Of a DNA stretch of 64,000 bases, positions 35,107-52,558 are shown one piece after another. This DNA comes from Thalassococcus sp. S3 (GTDB lineage: Bacteria; Pseudomonadota; Alphaproteobacteria; Rhodobacterales; Rhodobacteraceae), in contig NZ_CP022303.1 in assembly GCF_004216475.1 (NCBI RefSeq), positions 2,914,001-2,978,000 of the forward strand, read 5' to 3'. Within the stretch, counting starts at the first letter, position 1. Each line of letters begins with the position of its first letter. Under the pieces are notes generated by a model that worked only from the letters and a program-made list of their open reading frames with translations, searched no databases and was not told where the DNA came from. The position numbers were made by a program, and so were the translations under genes.

Positions 35107-35844
35107 TCAGTGGCTTAGCACCTGATCGAGAAACGCACGTGTGCGCGCGCTTTTGGGAGTGGTGAAGAAGGCTTCGGGTTCATCCTCCTCGATGATCTCG
35201 CCTGCATCCATGAAGATCACGCGATCGGCAACCTTGCGGGCAAAGCCCATCTCATGCGTGACGCAGATCATGGTCATCCCCTCTTGTGCCAAAGTGACCA
35301 TCACATCAAGCACCTCGCCGATCATCTCCGGATCAAGCGCCGAGGTCGGCTCATCGAAAAGGAGGATCTCGGGCTTCATGCAAAGCGCCCGGGCAATCGC
35401 AACGCGCTGTTGCTGGCCCCCCGAAAGTTGGCCGGGATACTTTTGCGCCTGATTTGCAATCTGAACCTTTTCCAGAAAACCCATCGCCGTTGTTTCGGCT
35501 TCGGCCTGCGGCACCTTCCGCGACAGCATTGGCGCCAGGGTGCAATTCTCAAGGATCGTCATGTGCGGGAAAAGGTTGAAGTGCTGGAACACCATTCCGA
35601 CTTCGCGCCTCAGATCGTCGATGTTCGGCGCGTCGGCGGCGATCTCGTCCCCGTTGATGCGGATGGCGCCGGACTGATGCTCCTCCAGCTGATTGATCGT
35701 CCGGATCATCGTTGATTTGCCCGAGCCTGACGGGCCGCAAACCACCACCTTCTCGCCTTTGCCGACGGTCAGATCAATGTCCTTGAGGGCGTGAAAGTTG
35801 CCGTAAAACTTATTGACCTTCTGCATTTGCACCGCGGGTGTCAT
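35107..35844 (-). CDS. aapP: Polar amino-acid ABC transporter, ATP-binding subunit (AapP/GlnQ type)
   Basis: A 245-residue ATPase with Walker [11 protein letters not shown]-loop [14 protein letters not shown] signature [15 protein letters not shown], Walker [13 protein letters not shown] and the switch histidine in VTHEMGFA. The closest type is the polar-amino-acid (PAAT) group. It ends the minus-strand operon that begins with the FAD oxidoreductase. No permease is next to it. The matching binding protein and permeases lie about 13 kb to the right at the other end of the island, and I infer that the two parts form one transporter. Confidence 0.9.
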
Positions 35845-35901
35845 GGGTCGGTTCTCCTGTTGGGGCGGGACTTTGGTCTGCTTTTTCAGTGTCGGTTCCG
35901 G

Positions 35902-37821
35902 TCAGGCTGTCGGTTCCTCGGCCAGCAGCCCACGGGCCAGAAGCGCGGCGCTGATTTCCTCCAGAATGACCGGGTCGTCGATTGCGGCTGGCATCTTGAA
36001 CGCGGCGCGATCCGCGATCTTCTGCATCGTCCCGCGCAGAACCTTGCCCGAGCGTGTTTTCGGCAATCGTGCGACCGCGACAGCCGTCTTGAAGGCCGCG
36101 ACCGCTCCGATCTTCTGTCGTACGAGAGCCACAAGCTCCCGTTCGATCTCGGCCTCGGGTCGGTCGACACCGGCATTGGTGACAAAAAAGCCAAGCGGCA
36201 GTTGGCCTTTGAGGGGATCGGCGCGTCCGACAACGGCGCATTCCGCCACATCGGGGTGACTTGCGATCACCTCCTCCATCGCGCCGGTCGACAGGCGGTG
36301 GCCAGCCACGTTGATGATGTCATCGGTGCGGGCCATGATGAAGACGTATCCATCGGCGTCGATAATGCCGGCATCCGAGGTGGCATAGTAGCCCGGAAAC
36401 TCTTCGAGGTAAGCCGAACGGAAGCGCGCTTCGGCCTGCCAGAGCGTTGGCGTACCCGAAGGTGGCAAGGGCAGTTTGATCACGATGTTGCCCAGCGTGC
36501 CCGCGGGAACGGGATGGCCTGCGTCATCCAGCACCTGAATGTCATAGCCCGGCATCGGCACGCCCGGCGAGCCGTGTTTGACGGGGAGTGCCCCCAGTCC
36601 GACGGGGTTGCCCGACATGGCCCAGCCCGTCTCGGTCTGCCACCAATGGTCGATGACCGGACGGTTGAGATGCGTCTCGGCCCAGGCCACGGTCGCTGGA
36701 TCAGACCGCTCACCCGCCAGAAAGAGCGTGCGAAACCCGCTGAGATCATAGTTTCCGATCAAGCGGCCCTCAGGGTCTTCCTTTTTGATCGCCCGGAAGG
36801 CTGTCGGCGCGGTGAAAAGCGCCGTAACGCGATGTTCGCTGATCACCCGCCAGAACGCGCCGGCATCCGGTGTGCCGACGGGTTTGCCTTCGTAAAGCAC
36901 GGTGGCACAGCCATGCAGCAGCGGGCCGTAACAGATATAGGAATGCCCCACGACCCAGCCGACATCCGAGGCCGCCCAGAAGACCTCTCCAGGCGAAAGA
37001 CCGTAATGGTGCGACATGCTCCATTTCAGGGCAACCATATGGCCGCCATTGTCCCGCACCACCCCTTTGGGCTGACCGGTCGTGCCCGAAGTGTAAAGAA
37101 TATAAAGGGGGTCTGTCGCTGCCACCGGCACGCACCCGGCACGCCGTCCGGCCTCCCGCGCTTCAGAAACACGATACGCATAATCGTGATCACGACCCGA
37201 GACGAGATCGCACCGCAGCGCCTCTCTCTGAAGGATCAGGCAGGCATCGGGCTTGGCCGCGGCAATCTCTATGGCCTCATCCAGCAGAGGCTTGTAAGGC
37301 ACGATCCTGTTCGTCTCGATCCCGCAAGAGGCCGAGATGATCGCCTTTGGCGCGGCATCGTCAATCCGGGTGGCCAGCTCGTTGGCCGCAAACCCGCCAA
37401 AGACAACCGAATGAATGGCACCCAGTCTTGCGCAAGCCAGCATGGCAAAGACAGCTTCCGGCACCATCGGCATGTAAATGATCACCCGGTCGCCCTTGCC
37501 CACGCCAAGATCGCCTAGAACCGAGGCAAGCGCGCTCACCTCGTCGAGCAAATCCGCGAATGTGAACCGTTGTACAATTCCGGTAACTGGGCTGTCGTGA
37601 ACAAGCGCCAGCCGCGCGCCGTGACCGGCCTCCACATGCCGGTCGACGCAATTCCAGCAGGTATTGCACAAGGCCCCCTCGAACCAGCGGCCATAGACGC
37701 CACTGCCCGGATCAAAGGCCTTCTGGGCGGGACGGATCCAATCAATCTCGGTCGCGACTTCGGCCCAAAAGGCTTCCGGATCGGCCTTCCATCTGGCATA
37801 TGTCTCGGCGTAGCGGCTCAT
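35902..37821 (-). CDS. prpE: Propionyl-CoA synthetase-like acyl-CoA ligase (PrpE type)
   Basis: A 639-residue AMP-forming ligase of the acetyl-/propionyl-CoA synthetase group. Motifs: YILYTSGTTGQPKGVVRDNGGH (P-loop), WWQTETGW, YYATSDAG and DGYVFIMARTDDIINVAGHRLS, and the adenylation lysine in TRSGKVLRGTM near the C-terminus. WNCVDRHVEAGHGARLALVHDSP near the N-terminus is typical of PrpE. Activation of propionate, acrylate or a related short acid is the expected reaction. It begins 3 bases after the SDR gene ends, in the same operon, so it should activate the acid made by the pathway; the actual acid is unknown. Confidence 0.88.
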   Translation of the reverse strand: MSRYAETYARWKADPEAFWAEVATEIDWIRPAQKAFDPGSGVYGRWFEGALCNTCWNCVDRHVEAGHGARLALVHDSPVTGIVQRFTFADLLDEVSALASVLGDLGVGKGDRVIIYMPMVPEAVFAMLACARLGAIHSVVFGGFAANELATRIDDAAPKAIISASCGIETNRIVPYKPLLDEAIEIAAAKPDACLILQREALRCDLVSGRDHDYAYRVSEAREAGRRAGCVPVAATDPLYILYTSGTTGQPKGVVRDNGGHMVALKWSMSHHYGLSPGEVFWAASDVGWVVGHSYICYGPLLHGCATVLYEGKPVGTPDAGAFWRVISEHRVTALFTAPTAFRAIKKEDPEGRLIGNYDLSGFRTLFLAGERSDPATVAWAETHLNRPVIDHWWQTETGWAMSGNPVGLGALPVKHGSPGVPMPGYDIQVLDDAGHPVPAGTLGNIVIKLPLPPSGTPTLWQAEARFRSAYLEEFPGYYATSDAGIIDADGYVFIMARTDDIINVAGHRLSTGAMEEVIASHPDVAECAVVGRADPLKGQLPLGFFVTNAGVDRPEAEIERELVALVRQKIGAVAAFKTAVAVARLPKTRSGKVLRGTMQKIADRAAFKMPAAIDDPVILEEISAALLARGLLAEEPTA

Positions 37822-37824
37822 CGG

Positions 37825-38568
37825 TCAGACGACGTAGTTCAGGCCAAGACGGCCACCATCGACGTAAATCGTCTCTCCCGTGACATAGCTGGCCTTGCGC
37901 GAGCAGAGAAATGCAACGACATCCCCGATCTCACGCGCGGTGCCCATGCGCTGTAGAGGCGTGCGTGACATGGCCATTTTCATGGCGTCGGGGTTCGCAT
38001 TGACGCCCGCCATCATCTCGGTGTCGATGGAGCCTGGCCCGACGGCATTGACCCTGATGTTGTGGGGCGCAAGGGCAAGTGCCGCAACCTTAGTCAATTG
38101 CATGACCCCGCCTTTCGAGGCGCAATAGGCCGGGATTGCCGGAATGGCGACCTGCGCGTTGATGGACGACATGTTCACGATGGCCCCTTCGATCCCGGCC
38201 TCGACCATCATGTTCGCAGCCCGCTGCGTGGCCAGGAACACGCCGCGCAGGTTGACATCGAGAACCCGCGCGAACGCGTCGAGATCGTAGCTGAGAAAGT
38301 CACCCGGCATCGCGATGCCTGCGTTGTTCACCAGCGCGGCAACGGGGCCGTGATCCGCAGCGATCCGGTCAAAGAGCGTGCCGATCGCGGCCACATCGCC
38401 CATGTCGCAGACATAACCGGCGCCGCCCAGTTCCTTGGCGGCGTCGTGAACGCTCTCTTTGACGTCGGCCAGAACCACAAAGTATCCATCATCGGCCAGG
38501 GCCTGCCCGCAGGCCAGGCCGATCCCCTGGGCGCCGCCCGTGACAAGCGCGATAGGTGTGTCAGTCAT
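37825..38568 (-). CDS. SDR-family NAD(P)-dependent oxidoreductase
   Basis: A 247-residue classical short-chain dehydrogenase. Nucleotide-binding motif TGGAQGIG (residues 10-17), ADV giving the acidic residue that favours NAD over NADP, NNAGIA, catalytic Ser in NMSSINA, and the Y-x-x-x-K pair in AYCASKGG. The C-terminus TGETIYVDGGRLGLNYVV is typical. The ATG at 38568 has AAGGAGA at 5-6 bases; a TTG one codon upstream is the alternative. It overlaps the hyuB stop. Substrate unknown; an alcohol or 2-/3-hydroxy acid of the pathway is expected. Confidence 0.88.
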   Translation of the reverse strand: MTDTPIALVTGGAQGIGLACGQALADDGYFVVLADVKESVHDAAKELGGAGYVCDMGDVAAIGTLFDRIAADHGPVAALVNNAGIAMPGDFLSYDLDAFARVLDVNLRGVFLATQRAANMMVEAGIEGAIVNMSSINAQVAIPAIPAYCASKGGVMQLTKVAALALAPHNIRVNAVGPGSIDTEMMAGVNANPDAMKMAMSRTPLQRMGTAREIGDVVAFLCSRKASYVTGETIYVDGGRLGLNYVV

Positions 38569-40225
38569 CAATCTCTCCTTGATCGTTCAGGCCGTAATCC
38601 GTTTTGGCCTGCTCCGACGTAATGAAACCGGCCTCAAGGTCCGCGGCAACCCTGTCGCGCGCCCGTTCCTTGGGATCGCCGAAACCGCCCCCTCCGGGCA
38701 GGCTCAGCCGTAGCCGCTGGCCCGGTGCGATCCGTTGGCGGCCCTTGCTGCGCAAGGGTGTGCCATCTGTCAGCTCGACCGCGCCCGCAGCCCCCGCCGC
38801 CCCGCCATCGCGTCCGCGCGCGGGATGTTCGACACGGTCGAACATGGCGTTGAACCAGAATTCATAACCGTCGCGGGCCTCGATCTCGATCACCTGCCCC
38901 AAGCCGCCCCGCAAGGCGCCCGCACCACCGGAACCTTCGCGCAGGTCCTTGCGCCAGACCGTGATCGGGCCGACATGTTCGGTCGCCTCAACACTCATCG
39001 TCGAGACGCCGGAGGGAAAGGCCGTCGCGCTCAGCCCGTCGACCAGGGGCCGCGCGCCGGTCCCGCCGGAGTTGAACATCAGAACCTCGCGATTGGGTAA
39101 TCCGCTTTCCGGATCCAGCGGGCGCGCGGAAATCTGGATGTTCCAAAGTGCGGACGCGCCTTCAGCCGGAACCACACCCGGCAGCGCCTTGTGCAACGCG
39201 CCCAGGACCACATCCGGCACAAGATGCCCCAGCACGTGACGAACAGAAACGGGTGCCGGGCGCTTCGCCGCCAGAATGCACCCCTCCGGTGCAGTAATCT
39301 CGAACGGGTCGAGCGACCCCGTGTTGTTGGGCACGTCAGGCGCAATGGCGCATTTCAGGCCGTAACAGGCATAGGCCCGGGTATAGACTTCGGGGACATT
39401 CACACCAAAGGCGCTCATGCCGCTGGTGCCCTCGAAATCGGCGACCAGCCTGTCTGCGTCGATGCGAAGCGAGACCGCCATGTGCACCGGCTTGTCGTAG
39501 CCGTCGACCTGCATGGTGTGGGCATATGTGCCATCCGGAACTTTGGCGATGGCCGCGTGCGTCGCCTTGCGGGACGTTTCGATGATGAAGTCCGACAGAT
39601 CCTGAAGATCGTTGATGCCGAACTCTTCCATCATGCTTTGCAACCGCCGCTCGCCAGCCTCGTTGCAAGCCGCCAGCGAATAGATGTCACCCACGGTCTG
39701 GTCCGGCGTCCTCACGTTGGCCCGGATCAGCTGAACCAGAAGCGCCTGCACCTGACCCCGCTCCGCAAACTTGGTGATCGGGATCAGCAGCCCTTCCTCG
39801 TAGACCTCGTTTCCATCGGGGCCGAACCCGCGCCCGCCGATATCGACGACATGGGCCGTGCAAGCGAAATAACCGATATGAATATCGTTGCGAAAGACGG
39901 GCGTGACGACCGTGATGTCGTGTAGATGTCCGGTCCCGAGCCAGGGATCATTGGTGATGAAGACATCGCCCGGATAAGTGTTCTGCGGCGTAATTTCAGC
40001 CGCGAAATGCGTCACGCTTTCGGCCATGGCATTCACGTGACCCGGCGTTCCGGTCACCGCCTGGGCCATCATCCGCCCCTGACGATCAAACAGACCCGCT
40101 GAAAGATCACCGGCCTCCCGCACCGAAGTGGAAAACGCGGTGCGGATAAGGGTCGTCGCCTGTTCCTCCACCACGGCGATCAAGCGGTTCCACATGATCT
40201 GGTGGTCGATGGTTGTAGGGTTCAT
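38561..40225 (-). CDS. hyuB: Hydantoinase/oxoprolinase B subunit
   Basis: A 554-residue HyuB-family protein. Conserved text includes IRTAFSTSVREAGDLSAGLFDRQGRMMAQAVTGTPGHVNAMAESV near the N-terminus, NDPWLGTGHLHDITVVTPVF, CTAHVVDIGGRGFG, and RPAPVSVRHVLGHLVPDVVLGAL. Together with HyuA it forms the ATP-dependent N-methylhydantoinase / 5-oxoprolinase family, which opens cyclic amides; related pairs act in acetone and acetophenone carboxylases. Its start overlaps the hyuA stop (ATGA), so the subunits are coupled. Family assignment is firm; the substrate is open. Confidence 0.92.
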   Translation of the reverse strand: MNPTTIDHQIMWNRLIAVVEEQATTLIRTAFSTSVREAGDLSAGLFDRQGRMMAQAVTGTPGHVNAMAESVTHFAAEITPQNTYPGDVFITNDPWLGTGHLHDITVVTPVFRNDIHIGYFACTAHVVDIGGRGFGPDGNEVYEEGLLIPITKFAERGQVQALLVQLIRANVRTPDQTVGDIYSLAACNEAGERRLQSMMEEFGINDLQDLSDFIIETSRKATHAAIAKVPDGTYAHTMQVDGYDKPVHMAVSLRIDADRLVADFEGTSGMSAFGVNVPEVYTRAYACYGLKCAIAPDVPNNTGSLDPFEITAPEGCILAAKRPAPVSVRHVLGHLVPDVVLGALHKALPGVVPAEGASALWNIQISARPLDPESGLPNREVLMFNSGGTGARPLVDGLSATAFPSGVSTMSVEATEHVGPITVWRKDLREGSGGAGALRGGLGQVIEIEARDGYEFWFNAMFDRVEHPARGRDGGAAGAAGAVELTDGTPLRSKGRQRIAPGQRLRLSLPGGGGFGDPKERARDRVAADLEAGFITSEQAKTDYGLNDQGEIDD

Positions 40226-42300
40226 GCCCGCTCTCCTTTTCGGATCAAGAGAAGGCTGCCGTCGGATTGTCCCACCGCCCGATAGGCCGATGTCACGATG
40301 GTCGATGTCTCAGCCTCTACGATCACCGCGGGCCCTTCGACCGACGCGCCTGCAATCATGTCGCTGCGCAGGATCTCCTGCGCTTGCACGGTGGCGCGCA
40401 GGGCGGCGTCAAAGAACTCCCGCGTCTTGGCAACCGGTGCATGGGATTGTCCGCCAAGACGGGCAACCTGTGTTGCTTCGGGCAGCACGGTCGCCACGAC
40501 AAGCGACCAGTTTGTGATCTCGGCCTCCAGACCGTCTATCGTCCGACCAAAAAGCGTCCGGTAAGCCTTCTCGAAAGCTGTTTCGATCATCGCGATATCG
40601 TCTTCACACAAGGCGCGATAGGGCAACGACACCGGGATCTCCCATCCCTGCCCTGCATATCTCATGAATGCGGTAAGCCGGATGGTGGTCTCAGCCCCAT
40701 CCGCACCCGCCGCGACAAAGGCCCGGGCTTCCTCTTCAAGTTCCGTCAGCGCGGCGTTGACCGCTGCCGCGTCAAAGGCCTTGAGGCGCTGGAAAAACCC
40801 GCGCGTCGCCTCGTAACTGACCGGCGCCTTCAGAAAGCCGATGGCCGAGCCCACACCGGCGCCCGGCGGCACCAGCAGCGCTTCGATCCCCAGCTTCTCG
40901 CACAGGCGGCAGGCATGAAGCGGGGCGCCGCCACCGAATGCAATCATCGTGAAATGTTCGATTTCACGCCCGTTTTCCACCGTATGAACCCGGGCCGCGT
41001 TCGCCATGTTCTCGTCGACCATTTCGGTCACGCCAAAAGCCGCGTCCGGTTCGGAAAACCCGGCCAGCCGTTCCGTCATGGCGCCCTTCGACTGCTGAAC
41101 CGAAAGCGGGATCGCCCCGCCCGCAAAATTGTTCGGATCCAGACGCCCCAGCAGCAGGTTCGCGTCGGTCACCGTCGGCTCCGTTCCCCCGCGCTGATAG
41201 CAGGCGGGTCCGGGTTCGGACGCGGCAGAGCGGGGTCCAACCTGGATACGGCCCATCGCGTCGATGGATGCAATCGAACCGCCGCCGGCGCCGATTTCGA
41301 CCATTTCCACCACCGGCGTCGACACGGTCATGCCCGAGCCTTTCTTGAACCGATAGGTACGCGCAACCTCGAACGTGCTCGCGGTCTTGGGCGCGCCGTC
41401 CTCAATCAGGCAGATCTTTGCCGTCGTTCCGCCCATATCGAAGCTGAGCACCTTATCAAGGTCATGCGCGCGCGCGTAGTCAGCGGCAAAGATTGCGCCC
41501 CCCGCAGGTCCCGATTCCAGCAGGCGCACCGGTTGTTCCGCCGCCGTCTGAACTGAAATCAATCCGCCGCCCGAATGCAGCATGAAAACCGACGCCTCGA
41601 TCCCGGTTTCCCGCAACCGCGCGACGAGCCGCCCGAGATAATCGGCGACTTGAGGCTGAACGTAAGCATTCGCGATCACCGTGTTAAAGCGCGGGAGTTC
41701 CCGCATTTGCGGTGAGATGACGGAGGACAGGGAGATCGACAGATCCGGCAAGGCCGCGCGCAGAGCCTCTGCCATGCGCACCTCATGATTGTCGTTGGCA
41801 TAGGCATGCATGAACCCGATCGCCACCGCCTGATATCCGCCGGCCCGGATCGAAGCGACAAGACGTTCCACCTCGGCCCCGTCCAGGGGAAGAAGCACCT
41901 CGCCGTCCGGGCCAATCCTCTCTCGCGCCGTCAGGCGGTGCTGCCGCGCGACCAGCGGTTCGGGCAGCGCGAGGTTCAGGTCATATTGTTCGAACCGGTT
42001 CTCAGACCGCATTTCGATCACGTCGCGAAAGCCTTCGGTGGTGATAAAGGCAGTGTGCGCACCCCGCCTCTCGATCAGAGCATTCGTGACCAATGTGGTG
42101 CCATGGATCACCTGGCCGATCTCGCCCAGCGCCACGCCCGAGCGATCCGCGGCCTGCAGGATGCCATCGAGAATGGCCTGTTCCGGCTGGCCGTATGTGG
42201 TCAGCACCTTGGCGGTCGCAAGTCCGCCGGGATGCATTAGGGCAACGTCGGTAAATGTGCCGCCGATATCAACGCCGACACGGATGGGAGGAGTGGTCAT
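40222..42300 (-). CDS. hyuA: Hydantoinase/oxoprolinase A subunit
   Basis: A 692-residue HyuA-family protein with the ATPase fold of the ASKHA group: RVGVDIGGTFTDVALMHPGG at the N-terminus and LSFDMGGTTAKICLIEDG near residue 285. HGTTLVTNALIERRGAHTAFITTEGFRD is a strong family signature, and MVEIGAGGGSIASID and GGGAPLHACRLCEKLG follow. It uses ATP to activate the cyclic amide (hydantoin, oxoproline or similar) that HyuB helps open. It starts 6 bases after the FAD oxidoreductase gene ends. Substrate not predictable from sequence. Confidence 0.93.
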   Translation of the reverse strand: MTTPPIRVGVDIGGTFTDVALMHPGGLATAKVLTTYGQPEQAILDGILQAADRSGVALGEIGQVIHGTTLVTNALIERRGAHTAFITTEGFRDVIEMRSENRFEQYDLNLALPEPLVARQHRLTARERIGPDGEVLLPLDGAEVERLVASIRAGGYQAVAIGFMHAYANDNHEVRMAEALRAALPDLSISLSSVISPQMRELPRFNTVIANAYVQPQVADYLGRLVARLRETGIEASVFMLHSGGGLISVQTAAEQPVRLLESGPAGGAIFAADYARAHDLDKVLSFDMGGTTAKICLIEDGAPKTASTFEVARTYRFKKGSGMTVSTPVVEMVEIGAGGGSIASIDAMGRIQVGPRSAASEPGPACYQRGGTEPTVTDANLLLGRLDPNNFAGGAIPLSVQQSKGAMTERLAGFSEPDAAFGVTEMVDENMANAARVHTVENGREIEHFTMIAFGGGAPLHACRLCEKLGIEALLVPPGAGVGSAIGFLKAPVSYEATRGFFQRLKAFDAAAVNAALTELEEEARAFVAAGADGAETTIRLTAFMRYAGQGWEIPVSLPYRALCEDDIAMIETAFEKAYRTLFGRTIDGLEAEITNWSLVVATVLPEATQVARLGGQSHAPVAKTREFFDAALRATVQAQEILRSDMIAGASVEGPAVIVEAETSTIVTSAYRAVGQSDGSLLLIRKGERA

Positions 42301-42306
42301 GGGGAA

Positions 42307-43581
42307 CTACAGGCTCTTGAGGATCTGATTTGCGGTAAAGGCGGTCTGGTAGAACCACGACGCCACCGGGGCGCTGGCGACAGTCTTGGGATCCGTGATC
42401 GGCAGGGGCAAGTCCTTGGGATCCATACCTGTCAGCAAATCCGCCATTGCCTGCCCAAAGATCGTCCCCGTGGTAATTCCGCGACCGTTGTAACCGATTG
42501 CCGTATAAATCCCACGATCCAGCAGATGAACGCGCGGCAGATGATCGGGCGTCATCGCAATCTGCCCGTGCCAGGCATCCTCAAACTCCACCGGGCCTAG
42601 CGACGGGAAAATCCGCGCGATCTGCTTGCGCGCCCAGCGATGCGACAGGCCGCGATCCACGTCACCGACAATCTTGCCCATGGATCCGATCACCAGCCGG
42701 TCATAGGCGTCGCGGCGCAGGCTGAACATGATCTGGCCCGTGTCCCACAGCCCCTGTCGGTCAGGCAGGATATGCGCGGCATCCGGCCCCAGCGGTTTGG
42801 TGGCCAGTTGGAAATAATTGATCATCGTGAAGTTCTGCTTCAGATCCGGCCACAAATCATCCGTGTAGGCATTGGTGCCCAAAACGACATTGCGGGCCTT
42901 GAGCTGACCCTGATCCGTCTCGACAATCCACAGATCGCCGTCCCTGACCAGCCCTGTGACGCGCACGTTGGTGCTGATCTTCGCCCCCGCGCCCAGCGCC
43001 GCCCTTGCCAGCCCCCGGCAATAGGCCATCGGGTTAACCGTTCCGGCCCGGCGATCGACGAGGCCGCCGAAAAAAACGTCGGATCCGATCAGATCGGCCA
43101 CCTCCGAGCGATCAAGAAGATCCACGGGCTCACCCAGGCGCTGCCACTCGGCATGTCGGTCCTGCAGATCCTTGAACCCGCTGGGCGCATGTGCGGCATG
43201 GATCGTGCCGGTCCGGGTCGCCTCGCAGCGGATCTGATGCTGTTCGATCAGCGAAAAGACGTATTCAGGGGCCCGTCCGAACCGTTCGACAAAACGCGGC
43301 CCATAGGTCTGCCCCAGCTTCTCACGCACCTTCGCGGGCGGAAGCCATGCGGCTGCATTCACAAGACCGACATTCCGGCCCGATCCGCCATATCCGATCT
43401 GATGCGCTTCCAAGACATGCGCACCAAGACTCTTTTGGGCGCAATGCAGGGCGGTCGAAAGACCCGTAAACCCCCCGCCGACAATCGCGACATCAACCAC
43501 CCCGTCAGAGGAGAAAGGCGCCGCATAGTCCTGTTCCTGCGCCGAACTGTCCCAAAGCGAAATCGGATTTTCAATGGTCAT
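42307..43581 (-). CDS. DAO-type FAD-dependent amine/amino-acid oxidoreductase
   Basis: A 424-residue flavoprotein of the D-amino-acid oxidase / PuuB group. The FAD-binding motif VAIVGGGFTGLSTALHCAQKSLG begins at residue 32, and GGSGRNVGLVNAA and the C-terminal IYTAIGYNGRGITTGTIFGQAMADLL complete the fold. Enzymes of this type oxidise secondary or N-substituted amino compounds (sarcosine, gamma-glutamylputrescine, D-amino acids). It is the first gene of the operon that continues with hyuA, hyuB, SDR, prpE-like and the ABC ATPase. It is divergent from the rhodanese gene. Confidence 0.9.
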   Translation of the reverse strand: MTIENPISLWDSSAQEQDYAAPFSSDGVVDVAIVGGGFTGLSTALHCAQKSLGAHVLEAHQIGYGGSGRNVGLVNAAAWLPPAKVREKLGQTYGPRFVERFGRAPEYVFSLIEQHQIRCEATRTGTIHAAHAPSGFKDLQDRHAEWQRLGEPVDLLDRSEVADLIGSDVFFGGLVDRRAGTVNPMAYCRGLARAALGAGAKISTNVRVTGLVRDGDLWIVETDQGQLKARNVVLGTNAYTDDLWPDLKQNFTMINYFQLATKPLGPDAAHILPDRQGLWDTGQIMFSLRRDAYDRLVIGSMGKIVGDVDRGLSHRWARKQIARIFPSLGPVEFEDAWHGQIAMTPDHLPRVHLLDRGIYTAIGYNGRGITTGTIFGQAMADLLTGMDPKDLPLPITDPKTVASAPVASWFYQTAFTANQILKSL

Positions 43582-43703
43582 CGTATGGCGCGTCCGGTTC
43601 GGTTATCACTGCGTCTATGTTGGGAATGTTGCTACAGCCCCCTTGTTGTGTCAACATATGAAAAACATGTTCCAAATGTCAGCACAAAGGATCCTATGCA
43701 CCG
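43582..43703. promoter_or_regulatory. Divergent promoter region, FAD-oxidoreductase operon / rhodanese
   Basis: The 122-base region holds a minus-strand TTGACA (43649-43654) with a weak -10 (CAACAT) at 17 bases. It also has the 13-base inverted repeat TGTTG-N3-CAACA at 43644-43656 and a second inverted repeat AACAT-N9-ATGTT at 43653-43671. An IclR-type operator here is plausible. Confidence 0.45.
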
Positions 43704-44975: not shown

Positions 44976-47319
44976 GATGTCTCTGCTCGGTTGGCTGGCA
45001 GTCCAGGCTATCAGAGCTGGCCTGGTTGCGAAAGGCGGGCGGATCATGCGCCTGCACCGGAGGGGCCGTACCGTCCCAGCGGCGGAGGTGGATGCGCGCG
45101 GAATGTGCCGCGGGGCTTTGCGACAGGCTCGACGTGCGCAGATCATGTGTCAGAACGTTGGGATTGCCGTGCCGGTCCAGATGGTCCGGCAGCTCGAAGT
45201 CGGGATCATACCATGCGCCCGTCCACAAAAAGGCACAGCCCTGCCGGATCTCATCCGTGACACGCGCGCCGGCCAGACAGCGACCGCGGGCGTTGAAAAG
45301 CTCAACCACGTCTCCGTCCCGAATACCGCGCGCCTGCGCATCCTCGGGGTGCAGCAAGACCGGCTCCCGGCCTGCGATCTTGTGCGACAGGCTATAGGCT
45401 CCGTTATCAAGCTGGCTGTGCAACCGTGTCTTTGGCTGTCCGGACAGAAGATAAAGATCCCCCTCCCCCGCAGCATCCCGAGGCGCCATCCATGTGGCAT
45501 GGCCCTTGCAGTCCGGCAAATCGAACCCAGCGATGGTTTCCGAGAATAACTCAATACGCCCGCTTGGGGTCGGAAGCGGATTGCGCAGCGGGTCTGCGCG
45601 ATATGCCTGCAGGAAGACCTGGTCCGGTGACGGGTCAGTCAGATGCACAACATCACCGTCCAGAAAGCTGTCGAAGTCGGGCAGATCGAGATGGGCCGCC
45701 CGGGCGGCCGCCTGTGTCTGGGACCAGATATCGCGGATCCAGTCTTCGGAGGACTTGCCCTCGGTGAAGGCACCCAACGATCCCAGACGCGCGGCCAAAT
45801 CCGAATAGATGTCGTATTCAATTCGGGCCTCGCCCGGCGGTTGGGCCAGCACGGGCATGGGAACGAGGGCGTTGTCGGATTTGCCGCCCCCGATATCCAT
45901 TCGTTCCTCGGCGGCGGCCACCGGCAAGACGATGTCCGCGTGCCGCGCGGTCGCCGTCCAGTTCACCTCGTTCACGATGATGGTTTCCGGTCTCTGAAAG
46001 GCCTGTCTGAGACGGTTGAGATCCTGATGATGATGAAACGGATTGCCGCCCGCCCACCAGACCATCCGAATATCTGGAAAGCGGAATGTGCTTCCGTTAT
46101 ACGCATAAGCTTCGCCCGGACGCAGCAGCAAGTCCGAGATCATCGCGACGGGGATGACCGTCTCCACGGGGTTTGTCCCCTGCGGAAGAGACCCCCAGCG
46201 AAAGGGGCGTTCGACATTGCCGATATTGGCGTTCACACCGTACCCGATCGTGTAACCGCCACCGGGCAAACCGATCTGACCCAGCATCGCGGCAAGCGTC
46301 ACCGTCATCCAGAGCGGTTGCTCTCCCCAATCGGCGCGCTGCACGCCGGCGGCGGTTGAAATCATCGTGCGCCCGGCGGCCATCTCGCGGGCCAGTTGCC
46401 GCAGACGACTTGCTTCCAGCCCGGATTGGGCCGCGGCCCATTCGGGTGTTTTCGGGAGGCCGTCGCTTTCCCCCCGCAGATAAGAGGCGACCTTGTCGAA
46501 CCCAACAGTGTATTTGTCCAGAAAACCCCTGTCACAGAGCCCTTCGGTCAGAAGCACATAAGCCAGGCCCATCATGATGGCCGTATCCGAGCCTGGACGC
46601 GGCGGCAGCCATTCGGCCTGCAACGACGCCTCCGCATCCGACCTCAGCGGACTAATATTGACGAAGCGTACACCGGCCTTCGCGCAGGCCTGCAGATTGT
46701 CCGACATGCGATGCCGGGCAACGCCCCCGTCGCTGACCTGGGTGTTGCGTTTGGCTATCCCGCCGAACATGACCACCAGATCGGTATGTTCCGCGATCAC
46801 CGACCACCGCGTCGCCTGGGCCACATGGCTCCGGAAGGGACCCACGATATGGGGCATCAGCACCAGGGCGGCATTATAGCTGTAATTGCCTTCCGACCTG
46901 ACAAAGCCGCCCTGTGTGTTCAGAAAGCGTTTCAACTGGCCCTGCGCATGGTGAAACCGCCCCGCGCTCGACCACCCGTATGAACCAGAAAAGAGGCTTT
47001 CATTGCCATGGGTTTCTCGCACGCGCCGCATCTCGGCTGCGACCAGATCCAGCGCGTCGTCCCAGCTCACTTCGACGAAGGGATCCCGCCCGCGTTCGCC
47101 CGCCCGCGCCGTGGGCCCGTGATCCAGCCAAGCCGCGCGGACCGCCGGGCGCAACACCCGGGCCCGCCCGCCCAGACTGCCGGCAATGTTGTCATTGATC
47201 CGGGACGGGGACGGATCGTCCGGATGTGGCGCGACCGAGACGATGCGCCCATCTGCAACCTGGGCCACGCCGACGCCCCAGTGATTGGCGGTTAAGGCCT
47301 GCTTTTGATGTTCCGTCAT
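44968..47319 (-). CDS. bisC: Molybdopterin-dependent S-/N-oxide reductase, BisC type
   Basis: A 783-residue enzyme of the DMSO-reductase family, type without iron-sulfur cluster: there is no N-terminal CxxC motif, and the molybdenum-ligand serine lies in SYGWSSAGRFHHAQ, as in BisC/TorA/DorA. There is no twin-arginine signal, so it is cytoplasmic like biotin sulfoxide reductase (about 777 residues). E. coli BisC also reduces free methionine-S-sulfoxide. GIAKRNTQVSDGGVARH, GGGYTIGYGVNANIGN and WTGAWYDPDFE...DRHGNPNVLTHD are family text. It is followed by and overlaps iclR. The substrate here is inferred to be an S-oxide carried in by the island's transporter. Confidence 0.9.
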   Translation of the reverse strand: MTEHQKQALTANHWGVGVAQVADGRIVSVAPHPDDPSPSRINDNIAGSLGGRARVLRPAVRAAWLDHGPTARAGERGRDPFVEVSWDDALDLVAAEMRRVRETHGNESLFSGSYGWSSAGRFHHAQGQLKRFLNTQGGFVRSEGNYSYNAALVLMPHIVGPFRSHVAQATRWSVIAEHTDLVVMFGGIAKRNTQVSDGGVARHRMSDNLQACAKAGVRFVNISPLRSDAEASLQAEWLPPRPGSDTAIMMGLAYVLLTEGLCDRGFLDKYTVGFDKVASYLRGESDGLPKTPEWAAAQSGLEASRLRQLAREMAAGRTMISTAAGVQRADWGEQPLWMTVTLAAMLGQIGLPGGGYTIGYGVNANIGNVERPFRWGSLPQGTNPVETVIPVAMISDLLLRPGEAYAYNGSTFRFPDIRMVWWAGGNPFHHHQDLNRLRQAFQRPETIIVNEVNWTATARHADIVLPVAAAEERMDIGGGKSDNALVPMPVLAQPPGEARIEYDIYSDLAARLGSLGAFTEGKSSEDWIRDIWSQTQAAARAAHLDLPDFDSFLDGDVVHLTDPSPDQVFLQAYRADPLRNPLPTPSGRIELFSETIAGFDLPDCKGHATWMAPRDAAGEGDLYLLSGQPKTRLHSQLDNGAYSLSHKIAGREPVLLHPEDAQARGIRDGDVVELFNARGRCLAGARVTDEIRQGCAFLWTGAWYDPDFELPDHLDRHGNPNVLTHDLRTSSLSQSPAAHSARIHLRRWDGTAPPVQAHDPPAFRNQASSDSLDCQPTEQRHHD

Positions 47320-47418
47320 CCGATTATTGTGCCGCTATACAATACATATATCCCGAATATTGACACGCCTTTGCCGGACTGTCATCCTCACATTTGATAT
47401 CCATACGCAGGTCCCGGC
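47320..47418. promoter_or_regulatory. Divergent promoter region, BisC-type gene / C-S lyase gene
   Basis: Plus-strand TTGACA at 47360-47365 with a weak -10 (CATCCT) at 17 bases serves the lyase gene. An imperfect dyad TTGT-N8-ACAA at 47327-47342 sits next to the BisC-type start codon. It resembles TTGTACCGTATAT in the leader of the binding-protein gene (near 52576). Confidence 0.4.
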
Positions 47419-48609
47419 GTGCCGCAAGATCCACTTAATATTGCTGACCATCTGGTTCAGGCCGGCCGACCCGAACGGGCGGAAGGTCGTCATGTCAACA
47501 TGCCGATCGAGCTTGGCTCGACGATGGTATTCGACACATTGGCCGCATTCGAAGCCGCGCGCGACGCGCGATATGACAGCGGTACAGTTTATTACGGCAG
47601 ATATGGGAACCATGCCTCCTTCCAGCTAGAGGCGATGCTGGCCCGGCTGGAAAAAGCCGATGGTGTCACGCTGACGTCATCCGGTGTGGCCGCGATTTCC
47701 CTCACGCTGCTTGCCCTGACCCGTCCGGGCAGTCACCTTCTGGTCGCCGACCATGTCTATGGCAATACGCGGGGATTTTGCGACACGGTGCTCGCCTCGC
47801 AGGGCGTCGATATCGAATACTTTGATCCGATGATCGGGGGCGGCATCACGGATCTGATCCGTCCAGACACAGCGGCCATCATGTTCGAAGCCCCAGGATC
47901 CGGCACGTTCGAGATACCCGACATCCCGGCCATCACGACCGTAGCACGCGCGAAAAAGGTGCCGACCGTGTTCGACAACACATGGGCCACACCGCTCTTC
48001 TGTCAGCCGCTTTTGATGAATGTGGATGTCTCGGTCGCTTCGGGGTCGAAATACATCTGCGGGCATTCCGACTGTATGCTGGGGATCATCGCAGCCAGTG
48101 GCCCGCTGGGCGAAAAAATCCGCAGAATGGTGATGGCCATCGGCGACAAGCCGGGCGCGCAAGAGGTGTTTCTGGCCTTGAGGGGTCTGCGGACACTTCG
48201 GATGCGCATGGCATATGTGGACGCCGCCGGACGGGACATGGCCAACTGGCTCGCAAAGCAGCCCCAGGTGAAACGCATGCTGCACCCGGCCCATGCCGAC
48301 TGCCCCGGGCACGCGCTGTGGCAACGTGATTTCTCGGGCGCCGCAGGGCTTTTTGGGGTGGTGTTCCACCCCTGCAGCGATGCCCAGATCCGCAGCTTCG
48401 TCGAGACCCTGCATCATTTCGGGATCGGCGTGAGTTGGGGCGGATATGAAAGTCTTGTCCTGCCGGTGACACCGACCCGGACCGCAACACCCTGGGTGGA
48501 AGACGGCCAACTGGTCCGCTTCAACATCGGCTTTGAGGATCCCGAGACGTTGAAGGCGGATCTTGCCGCCGCCCTGCCCCACCTGAACAGCGCACCGGAG
48601 CGAACATGA
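47419..48609 (+). CDS. MetC-like PLP-dependent carbon-sulfur lyase
   Basis: A 396-residue member of the Cys/Met-metabolism PLP family, closest in look to cystathionine beta-lyase MetC. YYGRYGNHASFQLEAML carries the phosphate-binding Tyr/Arg, TSSGVAAISLTLL is the PLP-ring region, and K211 in ASGSKYICGHSDCMLG is the PLP lysine (MetC has TKYxxGHSD). SWGGYESLVLP is the substrate-carboxylate region. The start is GTG with GCAGGT upstream; an internal ATG would remove the normal N-terminus. Beta- or gamma-elimination from a sulfur amino acid is expected. It is coupled to the VOC-fold gene by a four-base overlap. Confidence 0.88.
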   Translation: MPQDPLNIADHLVQAGRPERAEGRHVNMPIELGSTMVFDTLAAFEAARDARYDSGTVYYGRYGNHASFQLEAMLARLEKADGVTLTSSGVAAISLTLLALTRPGSHLLVADHVYGNTRGFCDTVLASQGVDIEYFDPMIGGGITDLIRPDTAAIMFEAPGSGTFEIPDIPAITTVARAKKVPTVFDNTWATPLFCQPLLMNVDVSVASGSKYICGHSDCMLGIIAASGPLGEKIRRMVMAIGDKPGAQEVFLALRGLRTLRMRMAYVDAAGRDMANWLAKQPQVKRMLHPAHADCPGHALWQRDFSGAAGLFGVVFHPCSDAQIRSFVETLHHFGIGVSWGGYESLVLPVTPTRTATPWVEDGQLVRFNIGFEDPETLKADLAAALPHLNSAPERT

Positions 48610-49241
48610 AAAACAAGATCGACCACTTTGCCGTGGGCGCAACCTCTCTGGAAGAAGGGGTGGCTGCCCTGCAAACCGCTCTTGGCGTCGAGGTGCCGCG
48701 CGGCGGCAAGCATGACGCAATGAGCACGCACAATTGTGTCATGCAGGCGGGCAATGAAAGCTTTTTTGAACTCATCGCGATCGATCCGGAGGCTGGCGAT
48801 CCGGGGCGAACGCGCTGGTTCACGCTGGACGATCCGGCCACGCAAAGCCGGCTCTCAGAACGGCCCCGTGCCCTGTGTTGGGTGGTGAACACCGATGATC
48901 TGGATGCGGTGATGTCGGCCAGCCCGGTTGATCTGGGTGAGGTTGTGACATTCACGCGGGGCACACGGTCGTGGCGTTTGACCGTGCCAAAGGATGGCAG
49001 CCTGCCGGAAGGCGGGTTGCTTCCGGCCTTTATCGAATGGTCCCCCGGTCCGCATCCCAGCACGGGCCAGCAGGATCTTGGCGTGAGGCTCATGGCGATC
49101 CGCCTCAGTCATCCCGACCCAGACTGTCTGAAGGGCATGCTGCGGCGTCTTCAGGTCGATCAACTTGCCGAGGTGAGCGAGGGGGATCCGGCGCTTTCTT
49201 TTGTGCTGGAGACACCGGACGGACCTGTTGTGATCGACTAA
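48606..49241 (+). CDS. VOC-superfamily (glyoxalase-like domain) protein
   Basis: A 211-residue protein of the glyoxalase-like PF13468 type: IDHFAVGATSLEEGVAALQTALGVEVPRGGKHDAMSTHNCVMQAGNESFFELIAIDPEA. The His in IDHFAVG and the Glu in FFELI are the standard metal-ligand positions of the first half; the second half is less regular. It overlaps the lyase stop (ATGA), so it likely acts on a compound of the same pathway, but the reaction is unknown. It is convergent with the permease gene only 7 bases away. Confidence 0.8.
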   Translation: MKNKIDHFAVGATSLEEGVAALQTALGVEVPRGGKHDAMSTHNCVMQAGNESFFELIAIDPEAGDPGRTRWFTLDDPATQSRLSERPRALCWVVNTDDLDAVMSASPVDLGEVVTFTRGTRSWRLTVPKDGSLPEGGLLPAFIEWSPGPHPSTGQQDLGVRLMAIRLSHPDPDCLKGMLRRLQVDQLAEVSEGDPALSFVLETPDGPVVID

Positions 49242-49248: not shown

Positions 49249-50328
49249 TCAGCGTTCCGATACGGTCATTCGGCTTTTGAGATATTCGCCATACTGGCCC
49301 AGCGAGAAGATGAAGATCCAGTAGATCGCGCCGACGAAAGCGTAGACTTCAAGATAGTAAGGCGCCCATTGTCCGGTCCCGAAGGCGGCATTGGCCGACG
49401 CCAATATGTCGAAGAAGCCGATGATGATGACGATCGCCGTCTCTTTGAACGTGACCACCACCATGTTGATCGTCGATGGCAAGGCGTGTCGGAACACCTG
49501 CGGCAGCACGATGCGAAAGAGGATGTGCCAATAGCTGAGACCAAGCGCCTTGCCAGCCTCGAACTGACCTTTCGGGATGGCTTGAAAACCGCCCCGAAAG
49601 ACCTCGGCCTGATAACAGGCGAAAAAGAGCGCGAAGGCGATGATGACCCGCCAGATCTTGTCCCCCTGCAACCAGTCCGGCAGCAGGATCGGAATGACCA
49701 CCGCGGCTGTGAACAGGGTCGTCAGCAGCGGCAGCGAGCGGATGAAATCGATCAGCAATGTCGCAAAGAGACGGACCACCGGCATGTCCGAGCGTCGCAT
49801 CAGCGCCAGCCCCAGACCCATCGGCATGCCCAAAAGCACGACGGATGCGAAGAGAAACAGCGTCAGTGACAGCCCGCCCCATTGGTCGGTCGTGACCTGT
49901 TGGAGACCGAGCAGGCTGCCTTCCATCAGCAGGTAATATGCCGCGAAGCCCCCGATCCACAGCGTCGTCAACCGCTTGGCCGTCCATGTCCAAGGGACGC
50001 ATGATGCGATCACGGTGCCGATGATCGCCAGACAGGCCAGGGTCGAACGCCAGTGTTCGTCATAGGGATAAAGACCGAACAGGATCAGCCGGTGCCGCGC
50101 ATCGATCACCGACCAGCACGCACCCTCCTTGCTGCATTGATCGGCATTCTCGGCACTCCAGACCGCGTTGAACACCGCCCAGTCCGCGAACAGCCAGATC
50201 AGGTAGGCCAGAAATCCGAAGACAACCACCGATATCGCGCTGTCCTTTGGATTGCCAAACGCGCGTTTTTGCAGGCGCGTCAGGATCCGCGCGCCGCGAC
50301 CCGGGGCTGCATGTGCGACAGTCGCCAT
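49249..50328 (-). CDS. aapM: Amino-acid ABC transporter permease, AapM type
   Basis: A 359-residue inner-membrane permease of the polar amino-acid group. About eight hydrophobic segments are seen, with the large periplasmic loop NADQCSKEGACWSVIDARHRLILFGLYPYDEHWR typical of AapM, and the ATPase-coupling EAA loop EAGKALGLSYWHILFRIVLPQ. It starts 1 base after aapQ ends, so the permeases are coupled. It pairs with AapQ as a heterodimer and needs an ATPase, the nearest being the AapP-type gene at the left end of the island. Confidence 0.91.
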   Translation of the reverse strand: MATVAHAAPGRGARILTRLQKRAFGNPKDSAISVVVFGFLAYLIWLFADWAVFNAVWSAENADQCSKEGACWSVIDARHRLILFGLYPYDEHWRSTLACLAIIGTVIASCVPWTWTAKRLTTLWIGGFAAYYLLMEGSLLGLQQVTTDQWGGLSLTLFLFASVVLLGMPMGLGLALMRRSDMPVVRLFATLLIDFIRSLPLLTTLFTAAVVIPILLPDWLQGDKIWRVIIAFALFFACYQAEVFRGGFQAIPKGQFEAGKALGLSYWHILFRIVLPQVFRHALPSTINMVVVTFKETAIVIIIGFFDILASANAAFGTGQWAPYYLEVYAFVGAIYWIFIFSLGQYGEYLKSRMTVSER

Positions 50329-50329
50329 A

Positions 50330-51463
50330 TCAATGCGCCTTCAGTTGAAGCCGCGCATTCAGCCAATTGACGAATTGCGCAAGCGTGAAGTTGATCAGCA
50401 GGAACGCCCCCATCAGGATCGCGATCAACTCCAAAGTCTGACCGGACTGGGTGATCGAGGTGGAAACGATATAGAAGAGATCTGAAAACCCGATGGCCAC
50501 ACCAATGGTCGTGGCCTTCATGATAAAGATCCACTGGTTTCCCAAAGGTGGAATGATCGTGCGCAAGGCCATCGGCAGTTTGATCCGCGACCAGATCGAA
50601 GCGGGGCTAAGACCCAGCGCCTGGCCCGCCTCCACCAGTCCTTTCGGCACCTCCTTGAGCCCGCCCCGCACAACCTCCGCGATGTAAGCGGATCCATAAA
50701 GGACGATGGACACGATCATGGCCACCAATTCGATGGAAACGGTCAGCCCTCCGACAAAACGCAAACCCCGCAGCTCGGGAACCGAAAAGATCGTCTCATC
50801 CGCAGGCACCAGGGTGATGGCGCTTGCAATCGCGAGGGCCAGAACCCCGGCGATCCAAAGTGCCAGCGCCCGCATCAAAGAGGTCTTGCGCCAGACCAAA
50901 AAGGCCGCAAGCGCAAGGCTCGTAAGCAGAAGGATCGCGGCGGCCCCCAGCGACAGGTTGAGCGTCGGCAACATCAATCCCCGGTTCGACAGAAAGGCCG
51001 CCTCTCCCAAAGAGTAAGCCTGACGCGGGCCTGGCATATGGATCATGATCGCGTACCAAAAGACCGCCTGCAGGATCAGGGGAATGTTACGAAAGATCTG
51101 AACAAACACGTTGGCCGCCGATGCCAGCGCGAGATTTCGCATGTCGCGGGCCGTGCCGACGATAAAACCCAGAATTGTGGCCAGGATGATGGACACGCCC
51201 CCGACAAACAGGGTGTTCAGAAACCCGATTGTCAGTGTCCGCGCATAGCTGTCATCGATGTTCCGTTCCAGCAGAGAAAACGAGTAACTCCATCCGGTGG
51301 AGCGGTCGAGAAAGCCAAATCCGCTTGTGATGCCCAGCGCAGAGAGATTTGTCTGCGCGCTGCTGACCGCCGACCAAACGATCGCGATGGTTCCAACGAG
51401 AATGACAGCTTGAATGGCGTATTGACGGCGCTTGGCCCGCGCCTTGAGTTCTGCCGGGGACAT
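50330..51463 (-). CDS. aapQ: Amino-acid ABC transporter permease, AapQ type
   Basis: A 377-residue permease with about eight hydrophobic helices and the coupling loop EAGQALGLSPASIWSRIKLP. The N-terminal part with a long periplasmic loop (LDRSTGWSYSFSLLERNIDDSYARTLTIGFLNTL) is typical of AapQ/BztB, larger than single-domain GlnP permeases. GGAGG is placed 6 bases before the ATG at 51463, better than the ATG one codon upstream. A strong stem-loop separates it from the binding-protein gene. Confidence 0.91.
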   Translation of the reverse strand: MSPAELKARAKRRQYAIQAVILVGTIAIVWSAVSSAQTNLSALGITSGFGFLDRSTGWSYSFSLLERNIDDSYARTLTIGFLNTLFVGGVSIILATILGFIVGTARDMRNLALASAANVFVQIFRNIPLILQAVFWYAIMIHMPGPRQAYSLGEAAFLSNRGLMLPTLNLSLGAAAILLLTSLALAAFLVWRKTSLMRALALWIAGVLALAIASAITLVPADETIFSVPELRGLRFVGGLTVSIELVAMIVSIVLYGSAYIAEVVRGGLKEVPKGLVEAGQALGLSPASIWSRIKLPMALRTIIPPLGNQWIFIMKATTIGVAIGFSDLFYIVSTSITQSGQTLELIAILMGAFLLINFTLAQFVNWLNARLQLKAH

Positions 51464-51485
51464 CATACGCCTCCGTCCGGGGAAA

Positions 51486-51512
51486 GGGCCATTCCAGATG
51501 GTGGAATGGCCC
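51486..51512 (-). terminator. Intra-operon stem-loop between aapJ and aapQ
   Basis: A perfect 10-bp stem (GGGCCATTCC with GGAATGGCCC, 7-nt loop) lies 17 bases after the aapJ stop and is followed on the minus strand by TTTCCCC. Such elements after binding-protein genes usually protect the upstream mRNA or partly stop transcription, giving more binding protein than permease. Confidence 0.7.
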
Positions 51513-51529
51513 GGTTGACGATACGTGGA

Positions 51530-52558
51530 TCAGTCGAGGATCGGGGCGTAGAGAACGCCGCCGTGGCTCCAAAGGTTGTTCAGGCCGCGATCCAGCTTGT
51601 AAGGGCTGCCTTCACCGAGGTTGCGATCGTAGATCTCACCGAAGTTACCGACTGCCGCGATCATCTCTTTCGCCCAGGTATCCCGCAGTCCCAGCCGTTC
51701 GCCCATGCCCGGATCGACCCCCAGCAAACGGGCAACGCGGGGGTTTGGCGGCGTTGCCGCCATCTCCTCGACATTGGCCATGGTCACGCCTTCTTCCTCA
51801 GCGATCAGAAGGGCGGAGAGCATCCAGTTCACCACGTCAACGAACTCTTCATCGCCCTGACGCATGGCTGCGGAAATGGGTTCAGAGGACAATTGATCAT
51901 CGAGGATCACATGCGCGTCGGGATTGTCGATTTCGGTTGCCCGCAAAACGGCGAGGTTCGGCCCCCACCCCGCGAAGGCATCACACCGGTTGGCCAGATA
52001 GGCCGCGCGCAGTTCCGATGCCTTTTCATAGGACACGATCGTATGATCGACATCGATGGTTTTCATATAATTCGCCGCGATGCGCTCAATCGTGGTGCCG
52101 GCTTCCACGCAAATCGTTCCCCCTTCGAGATCCTTGGCCTCAGAGATACCAAGATCGCCATGCGCCATGAACTGGGTGCCTCCGAAGAAATACGGCAACG
52201 AGAACTGGAGCCCAAGCTCCGTATCGCGGCCCATCGTCCAGCCTGTCGCCTTGATGATGATATCGACATCACCCGATTGCAGGGCGGGGAAACGCTGGGC
52301 CCAGCTCAGCGGGACGATCTGCACCTTGTTCGGATCGCCCAGAATAGCGGTTGTGAGCGCGCGGCAGATATCAATGTCGAGGCCCTTCCACTCGTTTCTG
52401 TCGTTCACTTCGACAAATCCGAAATAGCTGCCGTTGTGACCGGAACACAGCATCGTGCCCCGATCTTCGATTTGCTTCACCGTGGCGCTTTCCGCCGCGG
52501 CCCATGTCGGAGCGCAGACCACCGCCGCGATCGCCCCCAGTTTGGCGAAATGGTTCAT
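51530..52558 (-). CDS. aapJ: Amino-acid ABC transporter periplasmic binding protein, AapJ type
   Basis: A 342-residue protein with a signal peptide (FAKLGAIAAVVCAPTWAAA, cleaved near residue 22) and a type-2 periplasmic binding fold (SBP_bac_3). Visible family text: VKQIEDRGTMLCSGHNGSYFGFVEVNDRNEWKGLDIDICRALTTAILG, RFPALQSGDVDII, then GTTIERIAANYM. The AapJ/BztA group binds a wide range of L-amino acids. GGAGG gives a 6-base spacing to the ATG at 52558. It is the first gene of the transporter operon. It sets the substrate of the island, but the ligand cannot be read from sequence. Confidence 0.92.
   Translation of the reverse strand: MNHFAKLGAIAAVVCAPTWAAAESATVKQIEDRGTMLCSGHNGSYFGFVEVNDRNEWKGLDIDICRALTTAILGDPNKVQIVPLSWAQRFPALQSGDVDIIIKATGWTMGRDTELGLQFSLPYFFGGTQFMAHGDLGISEAKDLEGGTICVEAGTTIERIAANYMKTIDVDHTIVSYEKASELRAAYLANRCDAFAGWGPNLAVLRATEIDNPDAHVILDDQLSSEPISAAMRQGDEEFVDVVNWMLSALLIAEEEGVTMANVEEMAATPPNPRVARLLGVDPGMGERLGLRDTWAKEMIAAVGNFGEIYDRNLGEGSPYKLDRGLNNLWSHGGVLYAPILD

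Follow-up and report, generated by a model that had tools for sequence, protein, structure and literature searches.

The window, a stretch of 64,000 nucleotides from the genome of Thalassococcus sp. S3 (C1:2914001–2978000 of 5.0 Mb), contains an island of 14 genes at positions 35107–52558, counted within the window. The island encodes an amino-acid importer of the AapJQMP type, an IclR-family regulator and a series of putative catabolic enzymes. Profile searches with Pfam and NCBIfam placed every gene named in the original prediction where it had been reported and in the family given. The tight units with a single regulator were also recovered, but the 14 genes form five transcription units and not four, namely aapJQM (minus strand), metC-voc (plus), bisC-iclR (minus), the rhodanese gene (plus) and dao-hyuA-hyuB-sdr-prpE-aapP (minus). 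Gaps between genes within units range from −8 to +63 bp.

The importer is complete. The aapJQM unit encodes a periplasmic amino-acid-binding protein (AapJ-like, 51530–52558; PF00497; PDB relative 4z9n), whose ATG start lies within a longer GTG frame from 52594, and two permeases, AapQ-like (50330–51466) and AapM-like (49249–50328), both matching PF00528. The AapP-like ABC transporter ATPase (35107–35844, minus strand; PF00005) is closest to the GlnQ and EhuA families and scores under their cut-offs. As the gap between prpE and aapP is only 57 bp, aapP could close the large operon that starts with dao. AapJ proteins of the module were 83–88% alike and at most 47% like other AapJ proteins in seven genomes; the corresponding values for MetC were 69–72% and at most 31%. 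AapJ and MetC are thus dedicated copies.

The enzymes differ in how closely they fit known families. MetC (47419–48609, plus strand) scored 373.3 bits with TIGR01324 (cystathionine beta-lyase; curated cut-off 365.9), its nearest solved relative is a cysteine-S-conjugate beta-lyase, and it is predicted to be a C-S beta-lyase. The VOC protein encoded next to it (48606–49241, plus; PF13468, Glyoxalase_3) had no NCBIfam match and no PDB sequence match, and its structure model was poor (predicted local distance difference test, pLDDT, 63). The cytoplasmic BisC-family molybdenum S/N-oxide reductase (44968–47319, minus) scored 896.6 bits with TIGR00509 (cut-off 1017.55) and retained in the alignment the SYGW and NYS motifs, which we take to be the Ser ligand and Tyr motifs of the dimethyl sulfoxide (DMSO) reductase type. 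The iclR gene (44205–44975, minus; PF01614, PF09339) is followed by that for a single-domain rhodanese with a CxxGxR loop (43704–44108, plus; PF00581; Cys at residue 90).

For the DAO-type flavoenzyme (OrdL/AmaA-like amine oxidase, 42307–43581, minus; PF01266), the nearest NCBIfam model was the L-pipecolate oxidase AmaA (NF050086; 452 bits, cut-off 600). Its predicted fold (pLDDT 80) was nearest to glycine and sarcosine oxidases and proline dehydrogenase, which indicates the broad oxidase family only; one of the listed fold relatives (9u3b) was crystallised with L-thioproline. The HyuA-type ATP-dependent subunit (40222–42300, minus; PF01968, PF05378) and the HyuB-type subunit (38561–40225, minus; PF02538) scored 437.1 and 192 bits with the alpha and beta subunits of caprolactamase CapAB (NF050156 and NF050157; cut-offs of 1000 each), and the nearest solved relative of HyuA is an N-methylhydantoinase. 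Then follow a short-chain dehydrogenase/reductase (SDR, 37825–38568, minus; PF13561; ATG start at 38568) and a PrpE/Acs-like acyl-CoA (coenzyme A) ligase (35902–37821, minus), which scored 715 bits with the propionate–CoA ligase model NF007815 (cut-off 955) and 678.7 bits with TIGR02316 (cut-off 827.4). Because these scores lie below the curated cut-offs, the AmaA, caprolactamase, PrpE and BisC functions rest on resemblance.

A repeated 17-bp palindrome, GTGCTGATATATAGAAC, was found in the intergenic DNA of all three control regions of the island. A matrix was built from 18 sites of relatives, with no sites from Vibrio or Paracoccus, and its four best matches in the window, at 43669, 52578, 47329 and 52599, lay in these three regions. 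The scores at 43669 (20.4) and 52578 (19.9) exceeded the best of 40 block-shuffled windows (18.4). When each promoter type was left out of the matrix in turn, the aapJ site ranked first among 127,968 positions, dao/rhodanese second and bisC/metC third. In the same kind of test on 17 promoters of relatives, 16 ranked 1–4 in their own locus and one aapJ promoter (L166) ranked 53. De novo motifs from a single promoter type were weaker: the other two types ranked 1 and 5 with the bisC/metC motif, 2 and 46 with the dao/rhodanese motif, and 12 and 1 with the aapJ motif.

A second copy of the operator usually stands 21 bp from the first; over 33 regions the mean score at this spacing was 1.9 versus −8.7 for the next-best spacing. 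As a pair, 22 of the 33 regions scored at least 18, while the aapJ promoters did not, and from those 22 a 38-bp paired model was built and searched in whole genomes. In the host genome three matches at E ≤ 5 were obtained among the 150 of 278 first-look candidates that were scored, and all three lie in the island: the dao/rhodanese pair (43648–43685, minus; E = 4.9e-7), which is the best match in the window, the bisC/metC pair (47329–47366, plus; E = 1.4e-6), which is the third, and a weak, partial match before aapJ (52578–52615, minus; E = 1.6), with a strong copy at 52578 and a weaker one 21 bp off at 52599. One copy of the bisC/metC operator overlaps a −35-like TTGACA box at 47360 before metC, which suggests that IclR acts there as a repressor.

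The presence of the operator tracked that of the IclR regulator. Among 32 genomes, an operator match at E < 0.01 was found in 15 of 16 with an IclR orthologue and in 1 of 16 without it (p = 8.6e-7). IclR is proposed to be the repressor of the island.

Recurrence of the set was surveyed in 394 genomes of the family Rhodobacteraceae, each listed under its own genus. The BisC query matched 119 of them at E ≤ 1e-150, and 14 genomes besides the window formed a clade at 64–72% identity, separated by a gap from the next match at 53%. Five of these 14 neighbourhoods (G229, G333, G089, G370 and G153) held the complete collinear set, aapP included, at 62–88% identity; the sets of G229 and G333 are near-identical to each other. 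In these five genera aapP also followed prpE, at 84–86% identity. Two further genomes held parts: bisC-iclR-dao-hyuAB-sdr in one (G152), and in the other (G227) dao, a 38% rhodanese, iclR, bisC, metC, aapMQJ and prpE fragments. The DAO query matched 78 of the 394 genomes at E ≤ 1e-100, with a clade of 37 besides the window at 54–76% identity and a gap to 48%; a HyuA of the island clade adjoined DAO in 18 of the 37 neighbourhoods. Ten genomes are shared by the BisC and DAO clades (p = 1.2e-8, uncorrected for kinship).

In the window the island is flanked on the left by an ArsR/AHSA1 pair and on the right by type VI secretion genes (Hcp, ClpV/TssH and TssA; 52929–57345), which start directly beside aapJ. 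With ArsR, AHSA1 and Hcp as queries, no match at E ≤ 1e-6 was obtained in the five collinear genera or in the Vibrio locus described below.

In one genome of the family (G295) the set is distributed over three chromosomal places, namely bisC-iclR, a metC-to-aapP block with dao-hyuAB, and aapJ, the latter being the sole AapJ match of that genome at E ≤ 1e-30. The paired operator model matched there at bisC (E = 1.2e-6) and dao/rhodanese (2.2e-6); a weak match immediately precedes aapJ (1.15), and one further match, also at 1.15, lies elsewhere. In Paracoccus seriniphilus DSM 14827 the set is split over two plasmids: one carries voc-metC, iclR, the rhodanese gene and dao-hyuAB-sdr-prpE, and the other bisC and aapJQMP. 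The bisC plasmid has its best matrix match at bisC (19.0); those of the other plasmid lie at metC/iclR (16.6) and dao/rhodanese (15.7).

A locus of an uncultured Vibrio carries 12 of the 14 genes in rearranged order, at 51–75% identity in L047; aapM (70%) and aapP (69%) lie in the adjoining stretch L131. The order is metC-voc-dao-hyuA-hyuB, then iclR, an MFS transporter gene, sdr and bisC on the opposite strand, then aapJQMP, which is contiguous both here and in P. seriniphilus. Genes for tRNA-Gly and a phage-type integrase precede this module (L047, 2808–4849). Matrix matches were found at bisC/aapJ (17.2) and upstream of sdr (15.4) and of dao (12.4), with one non-module match at 14.0. On plasmids of Vibrio fortis, V. 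pelagius and Vibrio sp. THAF190c (L179, L180 and L182), a 56–57% BisC relative lies near folate genes, and the rest of the set was not seen in the annotation shown.

The gene neighbourhood thus recurs in other Rhodobacteraceae, as the original prediction had asked to be checked, and its notion that the genes work as a unit, with a single regulator and an amino-acid ABC transporter of their own, is supported by this recurrence and by the common operator. Because the set is collinear in five genera and returns rearranged in Vibrio, the gene arrangement is not a matter of chance. The full module does not show the independent assortment that had been named as a possible refutation, given its collinearity in five genera, its presence in Vibrio and Paracoccus and its common operator, but parts do assort separately: the rhodanese/DAO-HyuAB-SDR core was also seen without BisC, MetC or Aap nearby. 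Two layers may therefore be distinguished, this core and the full module, and the separate occurrence of parts favours a modular origin. Among the close relatives of DAO and VOC (best 120 each), Sulfitobacter, Antarctobacter, Planktomarina, Roseovarius, Leisingera, Tateyamaria and Epibacterium were named, along with metagenomes, so the trait looks widespread.

HyuA was tried as a marker of the module and rejected. HyuAB occurred without most of the module genes in 16 neighbourhoods, drawn from 12 genera of the same family and three more distant genomes, and the same held for 79 of 80 named HyuA loci, the best of the matches listed, 19 of which are shorter than 15 kb; L047 alone carries most of the set. 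HyuAB of the island type seems to be an enzyme of general use that was recruited to the module, and BisC, followed by DAO, proved the better marker.

Several other loci appear to be altered or partial copies. L208 is a decaying copy with prpE frameshifts and a truncated bisC, L170 is another, with prpE fragments and without HyuAB-SDR, and in L181 (a plasmid of SC52) HyuAB has been lost between dao and sdr. In L174 and L175, rhodanese and BisC genes form a convergent or adjacent pair without other module genes, so the rhodanese may serve BisC.

Neighbouring genes in related loci give clues to the chemistry. In four loci (L163, L164, L167 and L205) a gene stands next to voc, and in L167 it matches the dioxygenase half of Blh: L167:4731–5621 covers only positions 136–423 of the 423 of NF040641 and scores 370.9 bits, under the cut-off of 625. 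This gene, together with a MetC above the beta-lyase cut-off, supports the earlier view that the compound contains sulfur. A RidA-family gene (PF01042) was found between prpE and aapP in L167, L205 and L208 and after sdr in L210, the Pfam test covering two of these four genes. A gene that lies between bisC and aapJ in P. seriniphilus (L178, 12603–13505) is cyclic-imino-acid-reductase-like, nearest to Delta1-piperideine/pyrroline-2-carboxylate reductases. The Blh-type gene, the likeness of DAO, RidA and this reductase-like gene point to sulfur release combined with a cyclic or secondary amine.

Other neighbours were noted in these loci. A BioY-type biotin transporter gene lies past aapP in P. 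seriniphilus (L178, 17830–19744), and a Tpa gene stands beside voc-metC in the same strain, with a 77% copy at the end of L223. In L223 (1–10397), DAO-SDR lies beside genes for an MttB-like methyltransferase and a sulfoacetaldehyde acetyltransferase.

The gene content, its conservation as a set and the common operator are established at the level of sequence. From these, the probable role of the island is the uptake and breakdown of a sulfur-containing, amino-acid-like compound in oxidised form, and a dedicated sulfur amino-acid pathway is plausible. The reading that we favour, with a probability of roughly 0.55, is that the 14 genes constitute a single catabolic regulon, horizontally mobile and controlled by IclR, which acts on a cysteine-derived sulfur compound and has a dedicated AapJQMP importer. 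IclR would repress the three control regions through the 17-bp palindromes and leave them once the substrate or an early product appears. The compound would enter as an S-oxide bearing a ring or secondary amine. BisC would turn the sulfoxide into a thioether by reduction. DAO, which resembles pipecolate oxidase, would oxidise the ring C–N bond, and SDR would convert the hydrated imine to a lactam. HyuAB would use ATP to open this lactam, giving a free alpha-amino acid of the S-carboxyalkyl-cysteine type, from which MetC would release a mercapto acid along with pyruvate and ammonia. Removal of the sulfur would fall to the rhodanese, helped in some relatives by a persulfide dioxygenase, and the PrpE-like ligase would feed the carbon to CoA metabolism. 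In some relatives RidA might hydrolyse the imine. The VOC protein has no step in the proposed route.

The best single candidate for the substrate, offered tentatively, is chondrine, which is thiomorpholine-3-carboxylate S-oxide, the sulfur analogue of pipecolate. It is a speculative extension that the island encodes a complete, mobile, IclR-regulated "thia-pipecolate" route from chondrine-type S-oxides to pyruvate, ammonia and oxidised sulfur, and it is equally doubtful that marine roseobacters and a vibrio would use this route for an algal cyclic sulfoxide amino acid. Thiomorpholine-3-carboxylic acid is described as a reduced cyclic ketimine (PMC7545470), and the title of a reference cited in PMC3280528 refers to chondrine as a red-algal amino acid.

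Two other cyclic or ring-bearing substrates were rejected. Biotin sulfoxide, on which BisC relatives act, was considered in view of BioY near the bisC-aap block of P. seriniphilus; the amino-acid importer and the beta-lyase would have no role with it, and no biotin genes were recognised by N-terminal sequence among the families recurring in at least three loci, which were not annotated singly. In cycloalliin, the ring carbon adjoining the nitrogen carries a methyl group, so that a lactam could not form there. Bacterial catabolism of cycloalliin did not appear in the titles and abstract openings of the best 8 of 27 literature matches.

A number of observations weigh against the favoured reading. 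Among the enzymes of the island, MetC alone exceeds a curated cut-off. The operator matches at 47329 (16.8) and 52599 (13.2) score within the range of shuffled windows. Most sites of the operator model came from genomes that were counted in the IclR association; minus the 13 site-donor genomes, the association is 3 of 4 versus 0 of 15 (p = 0.004), and G333, a near copy of a donor, is among the three. There are also two exceptions, a genome with the operator and no IclR (G200) and one with IclR and no operator match at E < 0.01 (G338). The Vibrio island shows no contrast in G+C with its flank (0.429 versus 0.427), and no repeat of the tRNA end of at least 14 bp was found on the far side in the stretch searched. 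PrpE and rhodanese were not found in the Vibrio island stretches searched. In the remaining 7 of the 14 BisC neighbourhoods, bisC stands by itself or is accompanied by rhodanese, iclR or SDR pieces, and DAO-SDR occurs without HyuAB in some loci, so not every step is obligatory. Finally, the reductase-like (OCD) gene of P. seriniphilus was unmatched at E ≤ 1e-40 in 32 further genomes and is a hint only, not a part of the module.

The same genes can be read in other ways. One regulon might serve an N-oxide or N-alkyl substrate, with BisC as an N-oxide reductase, DAO oxidising or dealkylating a secondary amine, HyuAB opening a hydantoin or lactam, and MetC and rhodanese finishing a minor sulfur branch. 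The NCBIfam match of BisC to an S/N-oxide reductase family, the sarcosine and glycine oxidases nearest to the DAO fold, the N-methylhydantoinase nearest to HyuA and the MttB-like gene adjoining sdr-dao in L223 would all fit this; we consider it rather unlikely, since all five full-module genera, Vibrio, P. seriniphilus and G295 retain metC-voc, and in four loci the Blh-type gene joins it, which makes sulfur release look like a main step.

It is unlikely that several unrelated pathways, for instance a branch that repairs or takes up methionine sulfoxide (Aap, BisC and MetC) and a lactam/hydantoin branch (DAO, HyuAB and SDR), merely answer to one signal such as algal exudate. The rhodanese/DAO-HyuAB-SDR core and BisC are indeed found apart in other genera, but both halves keep one operator even across replicons or distant sites, and the sharing of 10 of the 14 BisC genomes with the DAO clade also speaks for one system. 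It is highly improbable that the island degrades a simple S-oxide, for example that of methionine or S-methylcysteine, with the other enzymes as accessories. The importer is of the amino-acid type, BisC-type enzymes can reduce such sulfoxides and MetC-type enzymes cleave S-alkylcysteines; a beta-lyase, however, is unsuited to methionine, and it would stay unexplained why the five full-module genera, Vibrio and P. seriniphilus retain DAO, SDR and HyuAB. Methionine sulfoxide, suggested in the original prediction, is disfavoured for these reasons. If the favoured reading of a cysteine-derived sulfur compound is true, marine bacteria own a dedicated, transferable means of using an oxidised organic sulfur-nitrogen compound. 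The operator offers a direct handle: a promoter fusion could screen for the inducing compound and make a set of vaguely annotated genes a testable pathway.

No description of this gene set was found in the open-licence PMC literature, subscription papers being outside the scope of the search, and the island was compared with known systems by its parts. Both subunits of HyuAB have full-length homology to the family of HyuAB, caprolactamase, N-methylhydantoinase and 5-oxoprolinase, but lie far under the caprolactamase cut-offs. Both halves of the Blh sulfur transferase/dioxygenase occur as separate genes in the four loci named above, whereas the window module has the rhodanese half only. BhcR, the regulator of the beta-hydroxyaspartate regulon, is the nearest NCBIfam model to the island IclR (NF045644), which nevertheless scores 154 bits against a cut-off of 350 and has other target genes. 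L-pipecolate catabolism runs via AmaA and AmaB; DAO is nearest to AmaA among NCBIfam models, but it scores under the AmaA cut-off and is joined to BisC, MetC, HyuAB and a transporter, and no AmaB-type aldehyde dehydrogenase is present among the 14 genes. The general L-amino-acid permease aapJQMP has the same four components as the island importer, but in the island the set is split by 13 kb and under the island operator, and the island AapJ forms a separate clade with 40% identity to the other AapJ of the genome.

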